32,119 nucleotides of DNA from an uncultured Actinomycetes bacterium. GTDB lineage: Bacteria > Actinomycetota > Acidimicrobiia > Acidimicrobiales > RAAP-2. A model generated the notes under the pieces. It worked only from the letters and a program-made list of their open reading frames with translations, ran no database searches and was not told where the DNA came from. The position numbers and the translations under genes were made by a program. Positions 3,591 to 18,783 of the stretch are shown here, one piece after another (the stretch's first letter is position 1; the number at the start of each line of letters is the position of its first letter). The stretch covers positions 1 to 32,119 of the forward strand of contig CAINFA010000098.1 in the NCBI GenBank assembly GCA_903847955.1, read 5' to 3'.

Positions 3591-4046
3591 TCAGAGCGAG
3601 CCCGCCATGCGCTCGGTGAAGTCGAAGCTCCACAGCGACACCGGGGTGATCCGCACCACCACCTCATCGTGGGCCCGGGCCAACAGCCGCTTGGACAGCG
3701 GCACGTCGGTGGAACCCAGGTAGCGGGTCAGCAGCCGCTCGAGCAAGGCTCCGCCGCCCTCGCTCTCGACCTCGGCGATGCCCCGGCCCCGCACGCCTCG
3801 GTAGGGCGGGTGGTCCGCCACCACCTCGAAGCTGCAGCGTGGCTCGGCACTCAGGCACGAGACCACCATGGCGTCGGGCCTGGTGGACAGCAAGAGCTCT
3901 CCGCCCTCCAGCACGAACCACAGCGACAGCCCGAGTGGCCAGCCTGAGGGGGTGACCACCGACAACCGCAATGGGATCGCGGTGTGATCGAGGTAGCGCT
4001 CGACCTCGGTAGCGCTCCAGGGTCCCGTCGAAAGCACGTCGTCCAT
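3591..4046 (-). CDS. PPOX-type flavin/F420-binding oxidoreductase family protein
   Basis: 151-residue protein resembling the pyridoxamine 5'-phosphate oxidase-like split-barrel family. The strand pattern PLRLSVVTPSGWPLGLSLWFVLEGGELLLSTRP followed by PRCSFEVVADHPPYRGVRGRGIAEV is typical of actinobacterial FMN- or F420-dependent members that reduce or sense small molecules. It heads a leftward operon with VOC, SGNH and DUF1905 genes. Its ATG at 4046 is preceded at exactly 6 nt by TAGCCT (minus strand, 4058-4053), so the mRNA probably starts at the ATG itself (leaderless). No Shine-Dalgarno sequence is present, in line with that. Cofactor and substrate cannot be read from the sequence. Confidence 0.78.
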   Translation of the reverse strand: MDDVLSTGPWSATEVERYLDHTAIPLRLSVVTPSGWPLGLSLWFVLEGGELLLSTRPDAMVVSCLSAEPRCSFEVVADHPPYRGVRGRGIAEVESEGGGALLERLLTRYLGSTDVPLSKRLLARAHDEVVVRITPVSLWSFDFTERMAGSL

Positions 4047-4052
4047 GCTCTG

Positions 4053-4058
4053 AGGCTA
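4053..4058 (-). promoter_or_regulatory. -10 element of leaderless PPOX operon promoter
   Basis: TAGCCT on the minus strand, 6 nt before ATG 4046. It has the same hexamer class and spacing as the starts at 5508, 13496, 17484, 17545 and 19811. Confidence 0.6.
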
Positions 4059-4184
4059 CGTCGCTTGGACCCACCCACCAAGCAGGCGCGCTGCTCTCAT
4101 CCTGCTCCCTCTCGGCAACGGATTTACAACTTGGGCTTGGAAGACTGGTCCCGCAGAGGTGGAGGCTGAGGGAGTCGAGGCACC

Positions 4185-4544
4185 ATGAACACCCCGGTGA
4201 AGCCGTGGAAGGGAGCGCTGGCCATTCGGCTCCGTGACGCGCCCCCGAACCCAACCTTCGCGGTGACCTGCCTCGATGACTGCACCGAGGGCGAAGGAGC
4301 AGCCACGTGCTGCATCAAGGCGGTGGAGACTTGCCTCGTGCGCGATGACGGCTCGAGGATCGCCGACGTGGCCATCGTGGGATGGCTCGACGACACGGTG
4401 GACCCACCCCTTGAGGCCCTCTACGACGGCTACTCCACCCAGGTCCACGAGTACGACGCCGACCTCGGGTGCTGGCGCCGTGACGGCGACGTCACCCCGG
4501 GCCAGCCCCTGTGGGACCTCAAACGGGGACGCTCCGCTCGCTGA
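4185..4544 (+). CDS. Hypothetical small protein with clustered cysteines
   Basis: 119-residue protein that I do not recognise. It reads like a real gene: third positions are G/C rich, composition is balanced, and GAGG lies 6 nt before ATG 4185, with more purine-rich sequence just upstream. A cluster of five cysteines falls in about 30 residues ([25 protein letters not shown]), followed by an acidic stretch ([32 protein letters not shown]). No signal peptide or membrane segment is visible. The short lower-GC stretch at 4120-4135 may hold its promoter. The last 26 bp overlap the end of the facing luciferase-like gene. A metal-binding or disulfide-containing role is possible but unproven. Confidence 0.55.
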
Positions 4545-5508
4545 AGCGCTCGAGCTGGGCGACCAGTTCGAGGGACGCCAACCGGTCACTCGGCGCGTAG
4601 CACCGCGTCGACACCAAGAGCTCATCGGCCGAGGTTCGCTCGAGGAGCTGCTCAATTCCTTGCGCCACGAGCGTCTGGTCACCGATGAGTTGGGTAGCCG
4701 CCATGGCTGCCACCTGGGAGGCCTCCGCCTCGGACCACGCTCGAGCCGCCACCACCTCGGGGGCTTCGAGCTGGGTTGGGCGACCCTGGCGCAGCGAGAG
4801 CATGGCGGCATGGGAGGGTCGGGCGAGGAACTGCGCCTCCTCGGTGCTCTGGGCGCACAGCACCGAGACCGCCACCATCACCTTGGGCGCCTCGAGGAGT
4901 GCGGAGGGGGTGAACCTCGAGCGGTAGGCCTCAAGGGCGGCATCGAGGAGCTCGGGCGCGAAGTGGTAGGCGAAGCTGAAGGGGAGCCCGAGGTGCCCCG
5001 CCAGCTGGGCGGAGTAGGTGGAGGAGCCGAGCAACCACAGCTCTGGCAAGAGCCCCCTGGCGGGGGTAGCCAGCACCTGGGAGGTGCCGGTGAAGTACGA
5101 GGCCAACTCCACCACCTGCTCAGGGAAGGAATCGGCGTCGTAGCGGCCGAGGGCTCGTGCCGTGGCGGCATCGGTACCAGGCGCCCGACCAAGCCCGAGG
5201 TCTACTCGACCAGGATGCAGTGCCTCCAAGGTGCCGAACTGCTCGGCGATCACGAGCGGTGCATGGTTGGGCAGCATGACCCCTCCCGCGCCGATGCGGA
5301 TGCTCGTGGTGCTGGCGCCAATCTGGGCCAACACCACTGCCGGTGCCGAGCTCGCCACCCCGGCCATGCCGTGGTGCTCGGCCACCCAGTAGCGGTGGTA
5401 GCCGAGCGCCTCGGCTCGCTGGGCGTAGGCGGTGGCATCGGCCAGCGCTTGGCTCGGGCTGGTGCCGGAGGGGACCGTGACGAGGTCGAGGACCGAGAAC
5501 CGTGCCAT
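4519..5508 (-). CDS. LLM-class (luciferase-like) flavin-dependent oxidoreductase
   Basis: 329-residue bacterial-luciferase-like monooxygenase. The N-terminal half has [24 protein letters not shown] and then [44 protein letters not shown], the signature of the MsnO8-like 'group 1' luciferase family. Members use reduced FMN (or F420 in related groups) and oxygen, and the substrate is not predictable. A TIM barrel of this length is complete. The ATG at 5508 is preceded by TAGGTT exactly 6 nt upstream (minus strand, 5520-5515), indicating a leaderless transcript. It appears monocistronic; the next leftward gene, the facing PPOX operon, starts nearly 500 bp away beyond the small rightward gene. 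The 3' end overlaps the small rightward gene by 26 bp. Confidence 0.85.
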
Positions 5509-5514
5509 GGCTCC

Positions 5515-5520
5515 AACCTA
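5515..5520 (-). promoter_or_regulatory. -10 element of leaderless LLM oxidoreductase promoter
   Basis: TAGGTT on the minus strand with a 6-nt spacer to ATG 5508 and no Shine-Dalgarno sequence. Confidence 0.65.
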
Positions 5521-5562
5521 AGGGTGGGACCCCTCCGTCCCACCCGCTCTCGACGAGGGTGT

Positions 5563-6069
5563 TCAGATGGTGGGGATGGCCACCGGCTCGACGCCGTGCC
5601 CCGCCGGCAGCACGTAGGGGCGGTCGATGACCTCGTCGAGGGCGAAGATGGTGACCGTCGAACGCACCTCCTCCATCTCCTCGAGGCGCTCCAAGATGAC
5701 GTGCCGGAGGGTCTGGATGTCGTCGGTGCGGACCTGGACGATGAGGTCGAACTCGCCGGTCACCACCGCGCAGTACTCCACCTCGGGGATCTCGGCCAGC
5801 TTCTCGGTGAGCTCCCGCCAGCGGTGCTGCTGACCGGAGATCAAGATGAACGCCGCCAAGCCATTGCCCGCAGCGGCGGCGTTGACCCGGGCGGTGAACC
5901 CTTGGAGCACCCCAGAGGTCCGCAGCCGCTCCATGCGGGCGTAGCAGGTCGCTCTCGAGATCCCGACCTTGTCGGCCAAGGAAGCCATGGGAATCCTGCC
6001 GTCCTCCCGGAGATGCGCGAGGATGGACCAGTCGACGTCGTCGAGCTTGGCTGAGGCGGTGGTGTCCAT
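5563..6069 (-). CDS. Lrp/AsnC-family transcriptional regulator
   Basis: 168-residue regulator with the two standard Lrp/AsnC parts. The N-terminal helix-turn-helix is LDDVDWSILAHLREDGRIPMASLADKVGISRATCYARMERLRTSGVL, and a C-terminal RAM/ligand-binding domain follows with FILISG, EVEYCAVVTGEFDLIVQVRTDDI and STVTIFALDEVIDRP. Such proteins bind DNA as octamers or dimers and respond to amino acids. It is divergent from the tyrosine/homogentisate catabolic operon, so control of that operon by an aromatic amino acid or its keto acid is a reasonable inference. ATG 6069 is chosen because GGGAAGG lies just upstream; the frame stays open for another 20 codons. A 12-13 bp inverted repeat in the divergent intergenic region (6132-6171) is a candidate operator. 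Confidence 0.9.
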   Translation of the reverse strand: MDTTASAKLDDVDWSILAHLREDGRIPMASLADKVGISRATCYARMERLRTSGVLQGFTARVNAAAAGNGLAAFILISGQQHRWRELTEKLAEIPEVEYCAVVTGEFDLIVQVRTDDIQTLRHVILERLEEMEEVRSTVTIFALDEVIDRPYVLPAGHGVEPVAIPTI

Positions 6070-6131
6070 GGTGACCTTCCCGGCAGAACCTCTCGCTCGA
6101 AGGACTTCGAGCGATGGTGTTCTACACACTC

Positions 6132-6171
6132 TGCTCGTAGATTAGCCTGTTCTCCGGCAATCTGTCGAGCA
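6132..6171. promoter_or_regulatory. Candidate Lrp/AsnC operator: interrupted inverted repeat
   Basis: TGCTCGTAGATT at 6132-6143 is matched by AATCTGTCGAGCA at 6159-6171. The arms are reverse complements apart from one extra base and share AATCT and CGAGCA. The 15-bp centre contains TAGCCT (6143-6148), a possible -10 for the rightward operon. A shorter symmetric element, GTGT-TCT-ACAC, lies beside it at 6117-6127. Confidence 0.5.
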
Positions 6172-6243
6172 ACTTCACCTTCTCCTGCACTCCGTGCGTA
6201 GAAGCGGCACACTGCGTGAGCGGCAACGCCGATGGGGGGATCG

Positions 6244-7095
6244 ATGACGAGCACGATGGAGCAGCAGCGCCAACGAGCAGAGGGCGACTTCGAGCGCTTC
6301 ACCGCGCGGGTCAATGCCTTGGTGGAGCGCCACCCGGTGGTGACCGACAACCGCTACTGCACCTGGTTTGCCCAAGGCCAGGCGAGTGCGGCCCAGGTCA
6401 AGGACCTGCTGGTCCAATTCTCGGTGTTCTCGAACCTGTTCATCGTGGCCCAGCTGCTCAAGACCATCAACGCTCCGAGCCTGGCCCAGTCCCGACAGAG
6501 CTGCGAGATCTTGGTGAACGAGCTGGGCGTCATCTTCAACGGCACTCGAGCTTCTGGTATAGACCACGATGCGGCCGGCGACCCCGCGCTCGTCGCCACC
6601 GAGGGGACCGTCGATGGCGGGACCTACCGCTTCGGCGCCCGTCACTTCGAGTGGCTGCTGCGGGTGGGCGAGTCGGTCGGGCTCGGGTTCGACGACCTGG
6701 GCAAGCGCCGGCACGGGACCGAGGCCACGTTGTTCTTCTGCGACGAGCTGGCCCGAATCTACGGCAGCGACGATCCCGACCTAGCCGAGGGTGCCAGCTA
6801 CGCGGTTGAGCACTGGGCCGCAGCCGGATTCTGGAAGCAGCTGATCGCTGGCCTCGAGGCCTACAAGGCGCAACAGTGCCCGAGTCTGCGGCTGAGCTTC
6901 TTCACCTGGCACGACCGGGTCGAGGCCAACCACGCCGCCCACACCGATGACGAGCTGGCGGAGGCCTTCGTGCGACCCGGCTTCGACGAGGAGCGCTTCT
7001 GCCTCGGCGCCACCGAGATGCTGCACGCAGTCGAGGTCTTCTGGAATGGCCTCGACACCAACCGAGTGACCCTTGGAGGAGCACACCATGGCTGA
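6244..7095 (+). CDS. Heme-oxygenase-fold diiron-type (HDO/TenA-like) protein
   Basis: 283-residue mostly helical protein that resembles 'iron-containing redox enzyme' members of the TenA/PqqC/CADD superfamily. Candidate metal ligands are present in the expected arrangement: a glutamate in CEILVNELG, a histidine seven residues or so before a helix in GARHFEWLL, and the C-terminal cluster WHDRVEANHAAHTDDE. These match the heme-oxygenase-like diiron oxidase pattern of glutamates and histidines. It is the first gene of the hppD-hmgA-aminotransferase operon, and its TGA overlaps the hppD start by 8 bp, so expression is tightly coupled. ATG 6244 has GGGGGGA just upstream; ATG 6232 is an alternative. 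Its chemistry in tyrosine degradation is unknown to me. Confidence 0.75.
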   Translation: MTSTMEQQRQRAEGDFERFTARVNALVERHPVVTDNRYCTWFAQGQASAAQVKDLLVQFSVFSNLFIVAQLLKTINAPSLAQSRQSCEILVNELGVIFNGTRASGIDHDAAGDPALVATEGTVDGGTYRFGARHFEWLLRVGESVGLGFDDLGKRRHGTEATLFFCDELARIYGSDDPDLAEGASYAVEHWAAAGFWKQLIAGLEAYKAQQCPSLRLSFFTWHDRVEANHAAHTDDELAEAFVRPGFDEERFCLGATEMLHAVEVFWNGLDTNRVTLGGAHHG

Positions 7096-11413: not shown

Positions 11414-11902
11414 TCACCGACGGCAGAAGCGCTCGAGGGCGGCCGCCTCGGCGGCCAGGTGGGCTTCGAAGCCCCGTGCGATGGCTTGCTCCGCAGCGCG
11501 CGCCACGAAGGGGAAGTGCACCTCCAAGGTGGCGTCGACCTGCTCCAAGGTGGCCTCGCCCTCGAGCAGGAGGTCGTAGCCCCCGCTGCAGCTGAGGAGG
11601 TCTTGGTAGTGGTCGGGGACCACCTCAAGAGACGCGGTGGCGGCCTCGAGGTCGAGGGTGGTGTGGATCACCCAGGTCAGCTTGGCGGCATCGAGGGCCG
11701 CCTTGGCTGGGCCCGAGAGCTCACCGGAGAAGCCGTAGCGCACCTCGAGCTGGGCGGTGGAGCCCTGCACCGAGATCTGCAGGACCTCAGGGGCGGCCAC
11801 GTTGTTGACCGAGCCCACCGAGGCGTAGAAGTCGGGGTCCACCAGCGCCTCGAGCACCTGGGCCCGGGGTGCGGCGATGCGTTGATCGAGGTGCAGCTCC
11901 AT
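11414..11902 (-). CDS. DUF2505/SRPBCC-fold protein
   Basis: 162-residue protein resembling the actinobacterial DUF2505 family, a START/SRPBCC-like ligand-binding fold. It opens with MELHLDQRIAAPRAQVLEALVDPDFYASVGSV, the usual first strand and helix of SRPBCC proteins, and ends with a long amphipathic helix (FVARAAEQAIARGFEAHLAAEAAALERF). Such proteins bind hydrophobic ligands; no reaction is known for the family. It sits between a PPOX protein and the fumarylacetoacetate hydrolase, 2 bp after the former, so the three form one transcript. A link to aromatic catabolism is only suggested by position. Confidence 0.75.
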   Translation of the reverse strand: MELHLDQRIAAPRAQVLEALVDPDFYASVGSVNNVAAPEVLQISVQGSTAQLEVRYGFSGELSGPAKAALDAAKLTWVIHTTLDLEAATASLEVVPDHYQDLLSCSGGYDLLLEGEATLEQVDATLEVHFPFVARAAEQAIARGFEAHLAAEAAALERFCRR

Positions 11903-11904
11903 GC

Positions 11905-12396
11905 TCAGCGCTCCGTGCCCAAGCCGAGCTTGCGGTGGTCCCAGGTGACCACCCGATCAACGGCCACCTTGACCGCCACCCGCTTGTGGAGCATGGCCTT
12001 GACGAAGGGCTCCATGGCCTCGGTGTAGGGGCCGTAGTAGCGCTCGCAGATGCTGACCCCGAGCGCCCAGAGCTCCTCGGGGTCCTCGGAGAGCTCGGCG
12101 TGGCCCACCAGCTCCACGCCTCGGAGCTCCTCGTAGGTCTCACCGGCTTCGAACAGCAAGGTGAGCTGGGGGTCGCGCCGGAGGTTCTGCACCTTCTGGG
12201 CCTTGGCCTTGGTCTCAATCGCCAAGGTGGAGCCGATGAAGCCGTACCACATGGCCACCGCATGGATGGTGCCGTCGTGGTTGATGGTGCACATCGACAC
12301 CGTCTGGCGCTCGGCTAAGAACGCCTCGACCTCCGTCTCGGTCATCTTGATGAGGTCACGCTGGTTGACCCCACGTCCAAAGGCCTCGTTCGCCAT
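11905..12396 (-). CDS. PPOX-class flavin/F420-dependent oxidoreductase family protein
   Basis: 163-residue split-barrel protein. VEAFLAERQTVSMCTINHDGTIHAVAMWYGFIGSTLAIETKAKAQKVQNLRRDPQLTLLFEAG is the typical PPOX/F420-type N-terminal barrel, and ELRGVELVGHAEL continues it. Members bind FMN, F420 or heme-breakdown products. ATG 12396 is clearly the start: GGAGGGGAC immediately precedes it, although the frame is open far upstream with poor-quality residues. It is the first gene of the leftward PPOX-DUF2505-FAH operon. TACGAT (minus strand, 12423-12418) is a possible -10. The PHO-box-like repeats at 12457-12511 lie upstream and could affect this promoter as well as the divergent regulator gene. 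Confidence 0.82.
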   Translation of the reverse strand: MANEAFGRGVNQRDLIKMTETEVEAFLAERQTVSMCTINHDGTIHAVAMWYGFIGSTLAIETKAKAQKVQNLRRDPQLTLLFEAGETYEELRGVELVGHAELSEDPEELWALGVSICERYYGPYTEAMEPFVKAMLHKRVAVKVAVDRVVTWDHRKLGLGTER

Positions 12397-12456
12397 GTCC
12401 CCTCCGAGCTCTGGCGCATCGTACCTGCTCAGCTGGGATGTTTCCCGAGCCCAACA

Positions 12457-12511
12457 GTTCACACCACGGTTACCTCGCTGTTGCTCGAACGCAGCCTCCC
12501 GTTCACCTCGC
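12457..12511. promoter_or_regulatory. PHO-box-like direct repeats between PPOX operon and response regulator
   Basis: GTTCAC at 12457, GTTACC at 12469, GTTGCT at 12480 and GTTCACC at 12501 are spaced 12, 11 and 21 bp apart, close to one or two DNA turns. Actinobacterial PhoP/RegX3-type regulators bind GTTCACC units at about 11-bp spacing. The last unit ends 9 bp before the TAGGTT hexamer at 12517-12522. Confidence 0.45.
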
Positions 12512-12516
12512 ACCCC

Positions 12517-12522
12517 TAGGTT
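12517..12522 (+). promoter_or_regulatory. -10 element preceding a leaderless upstream ORF
   Basis: TAGGTT followed after exactly 6 nt by GTG 12529, the same arrangement as the other leaderless starts in the window. Confidence 0.5.
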
Positions 12523-12528
12523 GGCCAT

Positions 12529-12741
12529 GTGGTCGGGTTCCCCCCTGCAGCATCTGGCGACCGGCAAGGGCACCGTGCCGTGTCGCCGCAGGCTCCTCCC
12601 CTCCCTTGTGACGCCGATGGGGGCCCGACCGCTGCTCCTTGTCCCGCCCGTCGTCGCCGCAAGGGCCCGACGCGGTGCACCGCGAGGTGGCACCTGAACA
12701 CCCGCGCCCAGCGGCACGGCACCTGGGCCACCCCCCGATGA
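12529..12741 (+). CDS. Putative leaderless upstream ORF coupled to the response regulator
   Basis: A 70-codon reading frame whose GTG lies 6 nt after TAGGTT and whose TGA overlaps the response-regulator ATG (ATGA at 12738-12741). The product is rich in Pro, Arg and Ala (for example APCPARRRRKGPTRC) and resembles no family I know, so it may act through being translated rather than as a protein. The regulator start has no ribosome binding site, which fits reinitiation from this ORF. Alternatively this is simply a 5' untranslated region with a chance open frame. Confidence 0.4.
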   Translation: MVGFPPAASGDRQGHRAVSPQAPPLPCDADGGPTAAPCPARRRRKGPTRCTARWHLNTRAQRHGTWATPR

Positions 12742-13448
12742 CCCAGGTCACCGCCCAGCTGACCGGCCACCCCTCGGTGCTCGTGGTCGACGACGAGGGC
12801 TCCTACCGCGACGCCCTGTCCTCGGGGCTGTCAGCCCAGGGGTTCACCGTGACCACCGCGGCCGATGGCTCAGAGGCGGAGTCGCTCTTCATGGCCGAGT
12901 CCTTCGACCTCGTGCTGCTCGACGTCATGCTGCCCGACACCTCGGGCATCGAGCTGTGCCAGCGGTTGCGGGCCGCTCGCAAGGTGCCGATCATCATGGT
13001 CTCGGCTCGAGATGGCGAGATCGACGTCGTCTTGGGACTCGAGTTCGGCGCGGCGGACTACGTGGCCAAGCCCTTCCGGCTGCGGGAGTTGGTGGCTCGG
13101 ATGCGGGCCGTGCTGCGTCGCGACGGGGACCCGAGCCCCGCCACCAACGACGTGCTGAAGGTCGGTCCTCTCGCACTCGACCTCGACCGCCGTGAACTGC
13201 GAGTCGACGGTGAGCTGGTGGAGGTCTCCCGCCGGGAGTTCGATCTCCTGAGCTTGCTGATGGCCCGACCCGGTCAGGTGGTGACCCGCGAGGAGTGCAT
13301 CGACCAGCTCTGGTTCGACGCCGATCTGTGCGACACCCGCACCTTGGACACCCACATGAAGCGACTGCGCCGCAAGGTGGAGGCCGACGCGGCGAACCCC
13401 CGACACCTCGTCACCGTCAGAGGCATCGGCTTCCGCTGCGATCCCTGA
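12738..13448 (+). CDS. OmpR/PhoB-family response regulator (RegX3-like)
   Basis: 236-residue two-component response regulator. The receiver domain has VVDDE with acidic pocket residues D18-D19, the phospho-acceptor D62 in LVLLDVMLP, the switch serine in MVSARDGE and the lysine in VAKPFRLREL. The C-terminal winged helix (about 135-236) ends in TRTLDTHMKRLRRKVEADAANPRHLVTVRGIGFRC. The receiver most resembles RegX3/PhoP-type regulators, where phosphate control is known, but no histidine kinase, phoU or pst gene is nearby. ATG 12738 has no Shine-Dalgarno sequence and overlaps the stop of an upstream frame. PHO-box-like repeats upstream suggest autoregulation. Confidence 0.9.
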   Translation: MTQVTAQLTGHPSVLVVDDEGSYRDALSSGLSAQGFTVTTAADGSEAESLFMAESFDLVLLDVMLPDTSGIELCQRLRAARKVPIIMVSARDGEIDVVLGLEFGAADYVAKPFRLRELVARMRAVLRRDGDPSPATNDVLKVGPLALDLDRRELRVDGELVEVSRREFDLLSLLMARPGQVVTREECIDQLWFDADLCDTRTLDTHMKRLRRKVEADAANPRHLVTVRGIGFRCDP

Positions 13449-13483
13449 TCGTCCTCGCCCGTCCAGATCGGCCCGCTGATCAC

Positions 13484-13489
13484 TAGGTT
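13484..13489 (+). promoter_or_regulatory. -10 element of leaderless bcp promoter
   Basis: TAGGTT with a 6-nt spacer to ATG 13496. The gap to the response-regulator stop is under 50 bp, so the peroxiredoxin can be transcribed on its own. Confidence 0.65.
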
Positions 13490-13495
13490 GGGGCC

Positions 13496-13948
13496 ATGGA
13501 CATCGGTGACGTGGCAGCAGACTTCGAGCTCAAGGACCAGACCGGGACGACTCGCTCGCTCTCCGAGCTGTGCAGCACCGGACCGGTGGTCCTCTTCTTC
13601 TACCCCGCGGCGATGACCAAGGGCTGCACCGCCGAGAGCTGCCACTTCCGAGACCTCGCCAAGGAGTTCACAGAGGTGGGCGCCCAGCGGGTAGGGATCA
13701 GCCTCGACAGCGTCGAGAAGCAGAAGGCCTTCTCGGACCTCCACGGCTTCGACTACCCCCTGTTGGCCGACACCGAGGGGGTCGTCGCTCGCCAGTTCGG
13801 GGTCAAGCGAGCCATCTCGTTGCTCAAGACCAAGCGGTCGACCTTCGTGCTCGACACCGATCGCACCGTGCTCGGCCGCTTCACCTCCGAGCTCAACATG
13901 GAGGCGCACGCCGACCAAGCGCTGCAGCTCCTCCGCTCGAGGCGCTAG
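13496..13948 (+). CDS. bcp: Bcp/PrxQ-type thioredoxin-dependent peroxiredoxin
   Basis: 150-residue peroxiredoxin that reduces hydrogen and organic peroxides using thioredoxin-like donors. The active site FFYPAAMTKGCTAESCHFRD contains the P-x3-T-x2-C motif (P37, T41, peroxidatic C44) and a resolving C49 five residues later, as in Bcp/PrxQ. An alanine stands where many members have aspartate after the proline. It is probably leaderless: TAGGTT lies 6 nt before ATG 13496 and there is no ribosome binding site. The TAG stop overlaps the stop of the facing DUF1543 gene by 3 bp. Confidence 0.92.
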   Translation: MDIGDVAADFELKDQTGTTRSLSELCSTGPVVLFFYPAAMTKGCTAESCHFRDLAKEFTEVGAQRVGISLDSVEKQKAFSDLHGFDYPLLADTEGVVARQFGVKRAISLLKTKRSTFVLDTDRTVLGRFTSELNMEAHADQALQLLRSRR

Positions 13949-14214
13949 TCCCCCTCGTCGAAGGGGGTGTCGTTGTCGTCGACCACCTGGCGCTCGGTCA
14001 CGAGCCCACCTTGGGCCAAGGTGATGGCGTAGCCGTCGACGTGCTCCAGCCGCTCGTACGCGTCGACGTGGGGGCGCCCCACCCCAGCCCACTTGGCCTT
14101 GGCCTTGCGCTTCATCTCGGCTACATCGTCGGCCACGACGAAGACCACCTCGTGGTCCTCTCCCATGCGACCCTTGCCCTGGTTCCCTCCGAGGTACACC
14201 GCGTACAGCTCCAC
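13945..14214 (-). CDS. DUF1543 family protein
   Basis: 89-residue protein fitting DUF1543. It starts MELYAVYLGGNQGKGRMGEDHEVVFVVADDV and continues with KAKWAGVGRPHVDAYERLEHVDGYAITL, both family hallmarks. The function of the family is not known. GTG 14214 is preceded by AGGAGGGG on the minus strand, a strong ribosome binding site that begins inside the stop of the alkyl-sulfatase gene. Only 8 bp separate the two, so this is the fourth and last gene of the Fe/2OG-Fae-sulfatase operon. It overlaps the end of bcp by 3 bp. Whether it contributes to the operon's chemistry is unknown. Confidence 0.78.
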   Translation of the reverse strand: MELYAVYLGGNQGKGRMGEDHEVVFVVADDVAEMKRKAKAKWAGVGRPHVDAYERLEHVDGYAITLAQGGLVTERQVVDDNDTPFDEGD

Positions 14215-14222
14215 AACCCCTC

Positions 14223-16139
14223 CTAGGGCTCGACGATGGCGAACCAGGGGTCTGGCGTGTCGAGCATGGAGAACAGCTCGAGCAGCGCCTCGAGGTCGCC
14301 GGTGATGGTGATGGTGCCCTTGGCCAGCTCGTCGAGGAGCTGGACCTGGCCGGTCAGTGCCGCCTTGAGCAGGGACACGCTGGTGGTGACGGTGGCCACC
14401 GCGCCGTCGTCGGTCACCCCCTTGTGGGCGTGCAGGACGCTGTGGATGAGCTCGAGGACGTAGTCGGCATCATCGGAGAAGACGAAGTTGATGCGGAGCC
14501 GACGCCCGGCCGAGCGCTCAGGGTTCAGCCGAATGGCGAGGAGGTCGAAGAGCATCTCGGTCGACAGCGAGCTGGCCATGGATCGAGCATTGGCCGGCGA
14601 GCCTCCACCGGTGGGCCGGGGCTCGAGCAGCTCCTTGGCACCGGTGAGGTAGAAGTTGCGCCACACGCCGTTCTCTTGGGCGTAGCCCAGCTGGACGAAG
14701 GCTCGAGCCAGCAGGTCTCGAGCGCCCTGGTGGCTTGGGTCAGCGAAGACCAGGTGGCTGACGACTTCTGCCACCCAGCGGTAGTCCCCTTGTGCGAAGG
14801 CACCCTCGGCGTGGGCGAGCAGGGCCTCGGGACCCCCGGCCAACTCCACGTAACGACGACCCTGGACCTCTGGTGGGTGGGGGTGGAGGTGGGCCGGGTT
14901 CCCGTCGAAGTAGCCGAGGTAGAAGTTGTAGACCGCCTTGACGTTGTGGCTGACCGAGCCGTAGTAGCCCCGGTTGCACCAGTGCCGTCCGAGGTCCTCT
15001 GGCCAGTCCAGCTGCTCGGCGATCTCGACCATGGTCAAGCCCTGGTTGGCCAGGCGGAGCGTCTGGTCGTGCAAGAAGCGATAGGCATCACGCTGGGCGC
15101 ACAGAAAGCTCCGCACCCGATCGTTGCCCCAGGTCGGCCAGTGGTGCTGGGCGAAGACCACCTCGGCGTCGCCGAAGAGCTCGAGGGTGCGGTTGAGGTA
15201 GTGGCACCACGCCCGGGCGTCCCTCGTCTTCGTACCTCTCGGGCTGTAGAGGTTGTGGAGCACGTGAGTGGCGTCTTCGGCCGAGCACAGCGCGTTCCAC
15301 TGCGGCAGGTAGAACAGCATCTCCGAGGGCGCCTCGGTGTCGGGTGCCAGCATGAAGGTGAACTCGACCCCATCGATCTCGAGGTGCTGCTCGGGCTCGG
15401 TGATCTCGATGGTGGGGGCGATGAGCCCAACGGTGCCCGACGAGGTGGTGAGCCCGAGCCCATTGGAGACCATGCCTTGCTGGGAGACCTCGAGGCGCTG
15501 GCCGTACATGTAGCTCGACCGGCGCAGCATGGCGTTGCCCGCCATCACGTTCTCGGAGATAGCCGCCTCGACGAACCCGGCCGGGGCGATGACCTGCACC
15601 TCGCCGCGCTCCACCGCGGCCTCCTCAATGACGCCCTTGACTCCACCGAAGTGGTCGATGTGGCTATGGGTGTAGATCACCGCCACCACTGGGCGGTGCC
15701 CCCGGTGCTCGCAGTACAGCTGGTAGGCCGCCCGCGCCGCCTCCTCGGAGATCAAGGGGTCCACCACGATGACCCCATGGTCGGACTCGATGAAGTCGAT
15801 GTTGGACAGGTCCGCCCCGCGCACTTGGTAAATCCCACCAGCGACGTGGAACAACCCACCGATGGCCAGCAGCTGGGTCTGGCGCCACAGCGAGGGGTTG
15901 ACGGTCTCGGTGCGCTCTTCGGCCACCAGCGCCTCGAAGCGCTCGAGGTCCCAGATGGTCCGGCCCTCTGGGTTGAGGATCCGACCCGCAGGCCCGAGGG
16001 GGGCGAGGAGGCCCCGGCGGGCGTCGGCGAAGTCGTCCTCGTTGGAGAAGTCGAGATGACCGAGCACCGCCGCATTGGCCGCCACCGTGGTGGCGGTGGG
16101 TGCTCCGGGGATGGCAGGGCCAGCGGTGTCGTCGGTCAT
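14223..16139 (-). CDS. Alkyl-sulfatase-type metallo-beta-lactamase-fold hydrolase (SdsA1-like)
   Basis: 638-residue protein with the three-part structure of SdsA1-type alkyl sulfatases, which hydrolyse primary alkyl sulfates to alcohol and sulfate. The N-terminal metallo-beta-lactamase domain has the zinc motif THSHIDHFGG (H158, H160, D162, H163) and FAQHHWPTWGNDRV. A helical dimerisation segment follows (about 370-510, with WPEDLGRHWCNRGYYGSVSHNVKAVYNFYLGYFDGNP). A C-terminal SCP2-like domain (about 530-638) would bind the alkyl chain. It lacks a signal peptide, unlike Pseudomonas SdsA1, so it probably acts in the cytosol. ATG 16139 is 2 bp after fae, indicating coupled translation. The substrate alkyl group is unknown. 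Confidence 0.9.
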   Translation of the reverse strand: MTDDTAGPAIPGAPTATTVAANAAVLGHLDFSNEDDFADARRGLLAPLGPAGRILNPEGRTIWDLERFEALVAEERTETVNPSLWRQTQLLAIGGLFHVAGGIYQVRGADLSNIDFIESDHGVIVVDPLISEEAARAAYQLYCEHRGHRPVVAVIYTHSHIDHFGGVKGVIEEAAVERGEVQVIAPAGFVEAAISENVMAGNAMLRRSSYMYGQRLEVSQQGMVSNGLGLTTSSGTVGLIAPTIEITEPEQHLEIDGVEFTFMLAPDTEAPSEMLFYLPQWNALCSAEDATHVLHNLYSPRGTKTRDARAWCHYLNRTLELFGDAEVVFAQHHWPTWGNDRVRSFLCAQRDAYRFLHDQTLRLANQGLTMVEIAEQLDWPEDLGRHWCNRGYYGSVSHNVKAVYNFYLGYFDGNPAHLHPHPPEVQGRRYVELAGGPEALLAHAEGAFAQGDYRWVAEVVSHLVFADPSHQGARDLLARAFVQLGYAQENGVWRNFYLTGAKELLEPRPTGGGSPANARSMASSLSTEMLFDLLAIRLNPERSAGRRLRINFVFSDDADYVLELIHSVLHAHKGVTDDGAVATVTTSVSLLKAALTGQVQLLDELAKGTITITGDLEALLELFSMLDTPDPWFAIVEP

Positions 16140-16141
16140 GG

Positions 16142-16651
16142 TTAGGCCTTGTTGAGGTAGTAGCCGTTGAAGGGCCGGTGGCGGGCAGCGAGGAGGTCGT
16201 CGAGCCGAGGCAACCCTTGGGTGCCATTCGAGAGCGCCTCATGGGTGGCGATGCGGTTGTTGTCGTAGACGAGGTCGGCGTCGGCGGCCAAGGGCGCGAC
16301 CCACACCGCTGCCAACAGCACGAGGTCATCGACGATGGCGGGATCGATGACGCCTGCGGCAATGGCTTCGAGCACGCCTGTGGCCACACCTGCTTGGGCT
16401 GGACCCCAGGTCATGGCGGCGTGGGTCTCTGACTCGATCTTGGCCTTGTTGATGAACAAGGTCATCGGCTTGACCGCCAGGTTGGGTTGGAGGCACACCA
16501 CGAAGCTGGCGTGCCCATCTCGTGGGGTGGCGAGCGCGGTGGTCCACGCCACCTCAGCTGCGCTCCCCTTGGGCCCAAGGACGGTGTTGAGGTGTGCCGC
16601 CTCGGCGCCGGACCCCACGAAGGCCTCGCCGTACTGGGTGGCCCGCGTCAC
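16142..16651 (-). CDS. fae: Formaldehyde-activating enzyme (Fae) homologue
   Basis: 169-residue protein, the same length as Fae, which condenses formaldehyde with tetrahydromethanopterin in methylotrophs and archaea. Recognisable segments are GEAFVGSGAEAAHLNTVLG with the catalytic histidine (H20), TALATPRDGHASFVVCLQPNLAVKPMTLFINKAKI, and GPAQAGVATGVLEAIAAGVIDPAIVDDLVLLAAVWV. The start is GTG 16651, which forms a GTGA overlap with the stop of the Fe/2OG oxygenase; the frame is open further up but only as the wrong-frame shadow of that gene. The sulfatase ATG follows after 2 bp. No mtdB, mch, fhc or methanopterin-biosynthesis gene is in the window, so the carrier is uncertain. Some Fae-like proteins have other or unknown roles. 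Confidence 0.85.
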   Translation of the reverse strand: MTRATQYGEAFVGSGAEAAHLNTVLGPKGSAAEVAWTTALATPRDGHASFVVCLQPNLAVKPMTLFINKAKIESETHAAMTWGPAQAGVATGVLEAIAAGVIDPAIVDDLVLLAAVWVAPLAADADLVYDNNRIATHEALSNGTQGLPRLDDLLAARHRPFNGYYLNKA

Positions 16652-17484
16652 TTCGGTGGCCAGTCGAGGGGCGGTGTGGCGAAGGGTTCGGTCCGGCCGT
16701 AGCGGTTCTCTCGCAGCAAGGCCGAGCCAACGGTGCCGGGCTTGGTGTCGTAGGCCAGCAGCCCGACGTGGCGGAGCGCCGACCCGGCGATGGGGCTGAC
16801 CCGGTGGATGGAGTTGCGACCTTCGAAGACGAGGAGGGTGCCTGGGGTCATGGCCAAGGTGACCACCTCGGACTCGTCGCCCTCGAGCAACGCACCAACC
16901 CTGTCGTAGGCCTCGTCTTCGGCGGTTCGGATGCGAGGGACCACGTCGAAGTCCCCGCCTTCGCTGGCGGCTTGGATGGCGAGCGAGACCACGAAGTCGG
17001 TCTGGTCGAAGTGCCACTGCAGTTCGTCGCCGTCGCCCATCACCGCCAGGTTCAACGCCCCGAAGGGGTCGGCGTAGGGGTAGATCGGACCGCGGTCCAA
17101 GATGGCCTCGATGAACCGGGTCACCTCCTCGCACTCGTACAACTGGCGCAAGGGCGAGGTGCGAGGAATCACGTCGTAGGGCACGGCGCGCACCGCGTAG
17201 GGCATGAACCGAAGCCTCGGGTGGTCCTCGGGAAGCGAGAAGTCAGGGAACTCGAGGTACGCCGTGCCCTCGCCCCTCGAGTGGAACGCTCGGGCTGCGA
17301 GCGCTTCAGCGTCGGCCACGAGTTCTGCGACGGCACGAGGGTGGCAGAAGCCCGAGATCTCCGCCGCTCCGCGCTCGGCCATCTGGGCCCGACCTCGGTG
17401 CACGGCCTCGAGGTAGACCGGGCTCTCGGGGTCGTCGAGGGGGTACCGCTCGAGGTCAACCAACTGGAGCGGAGAGGACGCCAC
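16648..17484 (-). CDS. Fe(II)/2-oxoglutarate-dependent oxygenase, BesD/HalD-like
   Basis: 278-residue non-heme iron oxygenase. The metal triad is visible as H158 and D160 in LQWHFDQTDFVVSLAIQ, and H227 in VFEGRNSIHRVSP, with R238 (SALRHVGLLAYDT) as the likely 2-oxoglutarate arginine. The overall layout, including YPYADPFGALNLAVMGDGDELQWHFD, resembles the BesD/HalD group of amino acid halogenases. Halogenases replace the aspartate by glycine; here the aspartate is kept, so hydroxylation or demethylation is expected. It is the first gene of the fae operon. TAGCGT on the minus strand lies 6 nt before GTG 17484, so the transcript is probably leaderless. Substrate unknown; a demethylation would explain the adjacent fae. 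Confidence 0.82.
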   Translation of the reverse strand: MASSPLQLVDLERYPLDDPESPVYLEAVHRGRAQMAERGAAEISGFCHPRAVAELVADAEALAARAFHSRGEGTAYLEFPDFSLPEDHPRLRFMPYAVRAVPYDVIPRTSPLRQLYECEEVTRFIEAILDRGPIYPYADPFGALNLAVMGDGDELQWHFDQTDFVVSLAIQAASEGGDFDVVPRIRTAEDEAYDRVGALLEGDESEVVTLAMTPGTLLVFEGRNSIHRVSPIAGSALRHVGLLAYDTKPGTVGSALLRENRYGRTEPFATPPLDWPPK

Positions 17485-17490
17485 ACCTTG

Positions 17491-17496
17491 ACGCTA
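17491..17496 (-). promoter_or_regulatory. -10 element of leaderless Fe/2OG-fae-sulfatase operon promoter
   Basis: TAGCGT on the minus strand with a 6-nt spacer to GTG 17484. It shares a 60-bp intergenic region with the divergent MFS promoter. Confidence 0.6.
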
Positions 17497-17532
17497 GCCA
17501 ACCTGCGCGGGGTGGGGGTGTGCACGCCCTCC

Positions 17533-17538
17533 TAGGGT
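17533..17538 (+). promoter_or_regulatory. -10 element of leaderless MFS transporter promoter
   Basis: TAGGGT with a 6-nt spacer to GTG 17545 and no Shine-Dalgarno sequence. Confidence 0.6.
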
Positions 17539-17544
17539 GAGTCG

Positions 17545-18783
17545 GTGGCCAAGAGGATCTTCGTCGACACCGCACCCCTCCGCCACAGCCGAGAGTTCCG
17601 CTTGCTCTTCCTCGGGTTCTTGGTCTCGAACCTCGGGAACCAACTGACGCTCGTGGCCATCCCGTTCCAGATCTACCACGCCACCCACTCCAGCTTCCAA
17701 GTTGGCCTGATCAGCGCGGCCCAGCTGGCCCCCCTGATCATCGGGTCGCTCATGGGCGGCGCACTCGGGGATCAGTACGACCGCCGGTCCCTCATGCTCG
17801 CCACAGCGGTGCTGCTGGCGACCACGAGCGCCATCTTGGCCCTCAACGCTGGGTTGTGGCACACCAACTTGGTGGTGCTCTACCTCGTCTCGATGCTGGC
17901 TGCCTTCTTCGCTGGGATCTCGAACCCCCAACGATCGGCTGTGATCCCAAAGCTCGTTGCCCGAGAGCACCTGGTCGCGGCGATGAGCTTCAACCAGTTG
18001 GTGCTGCAGTTCGGCGGCGTGGTCGGACCTGCGCTCGCGGGGCTGATCATCGCGGTGTTCGGCGTGCCCACCACCTACGCCATCGATGCGCTCACCTTCG
18101 CCATCACCATCGTGACGACCGCGCTGCTCGCGTCCATCCCTCCCGCCCCAGGGGCGGCCATGCCCATGGTGGCGTCGATTCGCCAGGGCTTCGGCTACCT
18201 CCGCGGCAGGTCCATCCTCCAAGCGGTGTACCTCATCGACCTCAACGCCATGATCTTCGGCATGCCACGGGCGGTCTTCCCCGCCATGGCAGCCACGGTG
18301 TACCACGTCGGCCCGTCGCTGCTCGGTCTGCTGTACGCCGCGCCAGCCGTTGGGGCGCTGCTCGGCGTGGTCACCACCGGCTGGGCCTCGAGGGTGGTTC
18401 GCCGGGGAATGACCGTGTCGATTGCGGTGAGTATCTGGGGACTCAGCATCGCCGCCTTCGGCCTCGTGCACCTCTTGGTCCTCGGCCTCATCTTCCTCGG
18501 CATTGCTGGTTGGGCCGACGTCGTCTCGGCCGTGCTGCGCAACACCATGCTCCAGACCTCCATTCCTGATCAGTTCCGATCCCGGCTGTCGGCCATCCAG
18601 ATCGCCGTGGTCCAAGGAGGCCCCAAGCTGGGCGACCTCGAGACCGGCGCCGTGGCAGGACTCACCACGCCACAGTTCTCGGTGGTCTCAGGTGGGCTGG
18701 CATGCGTGGTGGGTGTCGGCCTCCTCGCGTTCCTGCGTCCGGGGTTCTGGGCTGAACGTGACCCTCAGGGAACGGCTCGCTAG
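17545..18783 (+). CDS. MFS exporter (EntS/MFS_3-like)
   Basis: 412-residue major facilitator protein with about 12 membrane segments. The first helices read RLLFLGFLVSNLGNQLTLVAIPFQIY, and the cytoplasmic loop 2-3 motif is GGALGDQYDRRSLMLAT, both typical of the MFS_3 group that includes the enterobactin exporter EntS. Transport direction is probably outward, by analogy. Its GTG start is apparently leaderless. It is transcribed divergently from the Fe/2OG-fae-sulfatase operon across 60 bp, so it may export a product or toxic intermediate of that operon, but this is inference. Its stop overlaps the rlmN stop by 3 bp. Confidence 0.88.
   Translation: MAKRIFVDTAPLRHSREFRLLFLGFLVSNLGNQLTLVAIPFQIYHATHSSFQVGLISAAQLAPLIIGSLMGGALGDQYDRRSLMLATAVLLATTSAILALNAGLWHTNLVVLYLVSMLAAFFAGISNPQRSAVIPKLVAREHLVAAMSFNQLVLQFGGVVGPALAGLIIAVFGVPTTYAIDALTFAITIVTTALLASIPPAPGAAMPMVASIRQGFGYLRGRSILQAVYLIDLNAMIFGMPRAVFPAMAATVYHVGPSLLGLLYAAPAVGALLGVVTTGWASRVVRRGMTVSIAVSIWGLSIAAFGLVHLLVLGLIFLGIAGWADVVSAVLRNTMLQTSIPDQFRSRLSAIQIAVVQGGPKLGDLETGAVAGLTTPQFSVVSGGLACVVGVGLLAFLRPGFWAERDPQGTAR

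Follow-up and report, generated by a model that had tools for sequence, protein, structure and literature searches.

A conserved gene pair of a HalD-family Fe(II)/2-oxoglutarate oxygenase and a Fae-family protein in actinobacteria without tetrahydromethanopterin marker genes

We analysed a 32,119-nt stretch of DNA, here called the window, that forms positions 1 to 32,119 of contig CAINFA010000098.1 from an uncultured actinobacterium of the order Acidimicrobiales. Its gene for an Fe(II)/2-oxoglutarate (2OG) oxygenase and the adjoining gene for a Fae-family protein form a module of two genes that is the conserved core of a four-gene operon. Fae normally needs tetrahydromethanopterin (H4MPT). Since the hosts of this Fae appear to be without that cofactor, the module probably handles formaldehyde in an undescribed way.

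Direct reading of the open reading frames (ORFs) in the window places four coupled genes on the minus strand at 13945-17484, in the order oxygenase, Fae, sulfatase and DUF1543. The oxygenase gene (16648..17484, core gene 1) matches the HalD family PF23169 at 47.2 bits (cut-off, 26), and the Fae gene (16142..16651, core gene 2) matches PF08714 at 159.7 bits (cut-off, 27) and TIGR03126 at 138.3 (cut-off, 118.05). The Fae start overlaps the oxygenase stop by 4 nt (GTGA). The two remaining genes are accessories of a sub-clade: an SdsA1/Pisa1-type alkylsulfatase (14223..16139; Alkyl_sulf_dimr, 202 bits; Alkyl_sulf_C, 117 bits) follows Fae after 2 nt, and a DUF1543 protein (13945..14214; PF07566, 46 bits; cut-off, 23), with an AGGAGG site upstream, follows the sulfatase after 8 nt. 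ORFs, strand, spacings and profile matches all agree with the first-pass annotation, which had described a four-gene operon of these families here. The divergent MFS exporter that it named is also present (17545..18783, plus strand; EntS/MFS_3-like, with MFS_3 at 124 bits and the EntS model below cut-off). This exporter lies near the oxygenase in 15 related loci, and the linkage is absent from other families; it is a syntenic neighbour, not part of the core. The divergent promoter region between them (17485..17544) was read directly and compared with relatives. A TANNNT-like hexamer, TAGCGT, lies 6 nt upstream of the oxygenase start in the window, and most of the compared relatives have such a hexamer about 6-8 nt ahead of their first start codon, so that the leaderless transcript proposed earlier is plausible; a sigma-70 consensus scan of the window promoter region gave no match. 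At the other end, a convergent AhpC/peroxiredoxin gene and an OmpR-type response regulator gene (12639-13948) adjoin the module and are kept in about 15 relatives.

The oxygenase was searched in 198 genomes of the order, taking at least 45% identity as the threshold for orthologs. Fourteen were found (45-68% identity, the window's own genome included), besides many more distant ones, and Fae lies directly downstream in 14/14. An independent search for Fae in the same 198 genomes found 17 with a match above cut-off, and 14 of these were the same genomes and the same places as the oxygenase. The hypergeometric probability of this co-occurrence is 6.7e-19, a figure that overstates the association because relatedness among the genomes is ignored. 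Three Fae genomes have no paired oxygenase: in the first the gene is at the end of a contig, in the second it is flanked by genes for a glycine-betaine-type binding protein and an enolase-superfamily-like protein, and in the third it comes after a Zn-alcohol dehydrogenase (Zn-ADH) gene.

Over a wider set of 80 loci (numbered here with the prefix L), Fae is in the flanking DNA of the oxygenase in 46; these come from several phyla, with Alphaproteobacteria and Myxococcota or other proteobacterial records among them. The Fae start falls from -16 to +45 nt from the oxygenase stop in 39 of the 40 pairs measured. In L057 the two genes are divergent and in L069 ABC transporter genes lie in between, arrangements that speak for a functional link over and above gene order passed down by descent. 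Both genes are present about 275 kb apart in IMCC26256 (L094; the contig of L151 has an identical length, 2461858). Fae-bearing loci cluster together in the oxygenase tree. Three loci (L093, L106, L048) come from records labelled Bifidobacterium breve or Acidobacteria yet group with Acidimicrobiia, and these labels are probably wrong. The literature covered, from which subscription journals fall outside, yielded no description of an Fe/2OG-Fae pair, and mentioned Fae in Acidimicrobiia only in metagenome listings.

The first-pass annotation had put forward co-occurrence across genomes as a check; the oxygenase-Fae pair survives it and the four-gene set does not. Among the 80 loci, the sulfatase accompanies oxygenase and Fae only in the window, L041, L043, L044, L045 and L049, which group together on the tree (support, 91; node not starred). 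DUF1543 is found in most of these sulfatase-bearing loci, and in L050, L052 and L055 it adjoins Fae with no sulfatase. Tight four-gene arrays were seen in no loci but the window, L045 and L049; in L041 and L044, DUF1543 is about 0.7-0.8 kb from the sulfatase. The interval there holds an opposite-strand ORF (L041 5073-5896, L044 8764-9458) that by eye resembles an NYN-domain (LabA-like) protein. In several sister loci (e.g. L034, L036, L037) Fae is followed directly by convergent AhpC, the gene that also flanks the window operon; the sulfatase and DUF1543 have therefore been inserted or lost in particular lineages. The sulfatase has the MBL, dimerisation and C-terminal domains and the metal motif of the SdsA1 type. 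It matches the PSdsA, YjcS, Pisa1 and SdsA1 structures over its full length (E from 2e-191 to 1e-167), with the metal-site motifs THSHIDH157, EAPSEM269, AEDATH287 and HHWPTWGN332 intact. It differs from SdsA1 and Pisa1 in that its N-terminus, as read from the sequence, carries no evident signal peptide, and in its place within the oxygenase-Fae operon of a single sub-clade.

Earlier called simply an Fe/2OG oxygenase, the first core protein can be assigned more closely, both profile and fold placing it in the HalD/BesD family of amino-acid halogenases and hydroxylases, with a hydroxylase-type HxD. In the halogenase branch HxG/A replaces HxD, letting halide bind iron. In an alignment of 39 oxygenase homologs, H158, D160, H227 and R238 are invariant, as expected for iron and 2OG ligands in a hydroxylase rather than in a halogenase; with H158-F-D160 in the place of HxG/A, the halogenase reading was ruled out. 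BesD-family enzymes attack side-chain C-H bonds, and we know of no N-demethylation by this family. The structural model (pLDDT, 94.9) has HalD, HalB and a BesD-like lysine hydroxylase as its nearest solved folds (TM, 0.64-0.68), and its first 38 fold matches are all HalA, HalB, HalD, BesD or lysine hydroxylase. An AtsK/TauD-like alkylsulfate dioxygenase was also considered and is absent from the family and fold results. Since the enzymes with the nearest folds take free lysine or ornithine as substrates, the model suggests that the substrate is likely a free, basic or cationic amino-acid-like compound. The window oxygenase thus shares Pfam family, nearest fold, 2OG dependence and, probably, a liking for free basic amino acids with the BesD, HalB and HalD halogenases and the BesD-like lysine hydroxylase (PDB 6nie, 7u6h, 7u6j, 7jsd), but is only 12-18% identical to them, has HxD rather than HxG/A and is partnered by Fae.

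Profile, fold and conserved residues likewise place the second protein in the Fae family. His20, Lys69 and Gln86 are invariant in an alignment of 33 sequences, and we take these positions to be the canonical active-site residues. The model (pLDDT, 94.8) resembles M. extorquens AM1 Fae1 (PDB 1y5y/1y60) in fold, with a TM of about 0.93 (0.92-0.93) to 1y60, and the two proteins share the three conserved residues and, probably, a formaldehyde chemistry. Unlike that enzyme, to which it is about 35-37% identical, the window protein belongs to a host group without H4MPT markers, and its gene is coupled to an Fe/2OG oxygenase. Moreover, the Asp two residues after the His in M. extorquens Fae, the one H4MPT-using reference compared, is Asn in 31/32 homologs and Thr in the other. 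Fae2 and Fae3 of methylotrophs (PMC5023235, PMC3728764, PMC7356819) are also divergent Fae paralogs of unsettled role, but those methylotrophs have the H4MPT pathway and Fae1, and the genomes here are without them. The fae3 gene of M. universalis FAM5 rises 11.7-fold on methylamine, and its deletion causes no growth defect (PMC5023235).

Marker searches found Mch in 0/28 and RFAP synthase in 0/28 Fae-bearing actinobacterial genomes, and Ftr in 0/14 of the Fae-bearing genomes tested for it. Positive controls match in archaea. The genomes searched are mostly of high quality (completeness of 90% or more and contamination of 5% or less in 23/28), and the window's own is 89.6% complete. With Mch and Ftr absent, the canonical H4MPT pathway (Fae-Mtd-Mch-Fhc) was ruled out in these hosts. 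Fae here therefore cannot use its canonical cofactor unless that is imported, and otherwise any carrier must be something else. The first-pass annotation had overlooked this need for H4MPT when it proposed oxidation releasing formaldehyde to be trapped by Fae; the handing of formaldehyde from such an oxidation to Fae is itself reasonable, given an oxygenase-Fae linkage that is very strong and spans phyla. Mycothiol-dependent formaldehyde dehydrogenase was tried as a general partner and rejected, being above cut-off in only 2/14 genomes. In L107, PurH, MetF and a glutamate-formiminotransferase-like gene (named by eye) lie near the pair (3865-6248 and 11743-12558); this is a weak hint at tetrahydrofolate as carrier, and chance synteny is possible.

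The contexts of Fae alone and of the oxygenase alone both point to amino-acid or quaternary-amine catabolism. In Actinomycetota, Fae without the oxygenase adjoins enolase-superfamily genes (L129, L148, L150, L152, L155-L157), Zn-ADHs (L130, L155, L157, L158), and also aldehyde dehydrogenases (ALDHs) and ABC transporters; gene calls in L152, L155 and L157 were checked with Pfam, and the others were recognised from sequence. One Zn-ADH found beside Fae is of the NDMA-dependent/class III type. Tested as the hydroxyproline-betaine epimerase HpbD, the enolase partner gave only generic MR/MLE relatives in a PDB search. Fae adjoins a glycine-betaine ABC transporter in L113, and in Streptomyces clavuligerus the fae gene is the last of an operon for such a transporter and overlaps the gene for the binding protein. 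This megaplasmid fae (L159 9956-10528) encodes a protein 65.6% identical to the window Fae over 93 residues. Where the oxygenase stands without Fae, its neighbours are aspartase-like lyases (Binataceae, Obscuribacterales), betaine-aldehyde-dehydrogenase-like ALDHs, OsmF/ProX-like (quaternary-amine/osmoprotectant) transporters (L075, L086) and methylaspartate ammonia-lyase (above cut-off in L082, below it in L096). In Binataceae locus L064 (8452-11917; L065 is alike) the oxygenase is followed by aspartase-like lyase, mesaconyl-CoA-hydratase-like (MaoC) and HpcH-like genes, which may lead from an amino acid to mesaconate and further. Distant HalD-like oxygenases (36-38%) occur inside an ABC transporter operon on a Shinella plasmid (L162 5971-6828) and near urea carboxylase and DUF2817 genes on Pantoea plasmids (L163 5989-6762).

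The conserved pairing, the intact active sites, the missing H4MPT markers and these contexts are best explained by a two-gene oxidation and C1-capture module, a reading that we hold tentatively, at a little under even confidence. In the first step, the HxD Fe/2OG enzyme, consuming O2 and 2-oxoglutarate, would add a hydroxyl group to a small metabolite of the cationic amino-acid or betaine type. An N-methyl group is the most likely target, and the intermediate formed would be an unstable N-hydroxymethyl compound (a hemiaminal); it is gene context that suggests this N-demethylase role. In the second, the co-translated Fae-family protein would either speed collapse of the hemiaminal or bind the freed formaldehyde and load it onto a nucleophilic carrier other than H4MPT, such as tetrahydrofolate or a thiol. 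In the window lineage, the alkylsulfatase and DUF1543 genes would have joined the same transcript, perhaps since they are needed under the same conditions. Some findings count against this scheme. In many Acidimicrobiia the pair is surrounded by housekeeping genes and has neither a transporter nor a demethylation partner beside it, and the betaine link is drawn from other genomes, not the window. Nor need formaldehyde be a product in every case, as many oxygenase orthologs are without a neighbouring Fae.

Three other explanations were weighed. The Fae-like protein may have lost formaldehyde chemistry and perform a hydro-lyase or imine step on a hydroxylated amino acid made by the oxygenase, with no C1 unit involved. 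The lack of H4MPT markers in all 28 genomes would fit, as would the replaced Asp and the amino-acid lyases (aspartase-like, methylaspartate ammonia-lyase) that other phyla have in the slot downstream of the oxygenase. The fold and the His, Lys and Gln are nevertheless fully conserved, the protein scores above the curated one_C_fae cut-off, and the NDMA-dependent/class III-type Zn-ADH beside one other Fae suits formaldehyde; we consider such a loss unlikely, though it is the strongest of the competitors. In another arrangement, which we think improbable, the oxygenase product is a hydroxylated amino acid that the divergent MFS protein exports, and Fae guards against by-product formaldehyde. Characterised relatives of the oxygenase are biosynthetic, and the exporter is near the pair in 15 related loci, but other families keep the pair linked with the MFS gene unlinked, and no other biosynthetic genes are nearby.

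The least probable, and to our minds very doubtful, is the single pathway around an alkyl or methyl sulfate that the first-pass annotation had proposed, in which the sulfatase hydrolyses the ester, the alcohol is oxidised and the formaldehyde passes to Fae, so that the four gene products work on a single compound. For all the tightness of the operon, the intact metal motifs and the sulfatase directly after Fae in L045 and L049 too, most oxygenase-Fae loci have no sulfatase, DUF1543 can accompany the pair without one, and the oxygenase is HalD-like rather than of the TauD/AtsK sulfate-ester type. The proposal is thus unsupported, the sulfatase being limited to a sub-clade and DUF1543 to a few more loci.

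Betaines such as glycine betaine and hydroxyproline betaine are N-demethylated by Rieske-type or flavin-type pathways. Oxidation followed by C1 capture would resemble these in the quaternary-amine transporters and enolase-type enzymes of the related contexts and in its predicted formaldehyde product, but here an Fe/2OG enzyme would perform the oxidation. More broadly, there may be a widespread H4MPT-independent class of Fae, using another carrier or acting directly on the hemiaminal, whose dedicated role is in the oxidative removal of N-methyl groups from betaines or N-methyl amino acids, carried out here by a HalD-family Fe/2OG enzyme; we regard this generalisation as possible, with more doubt than we attach to the module itself.

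The presence of Fae is usually taken to indicate H4MPT-based C1 metabolism and methylotrophy. In Actinomycetota it recurs in genomes that have no H4MPT marker, linked to an uncharacterised oxygenase, and if it traps formaldehyde by another route, this changes the reading of fae in genomes and metagenomes. S. clavuligerus, with Fae WP_003952931, offers a cultivable test case for this class of Fae. Trapping by another route, if true, would also provide orphan Fae homologs and one group of HalD-like oxygenases with a testable function, and would add a formaldehyde route to freshwater and soil actinobacteria.
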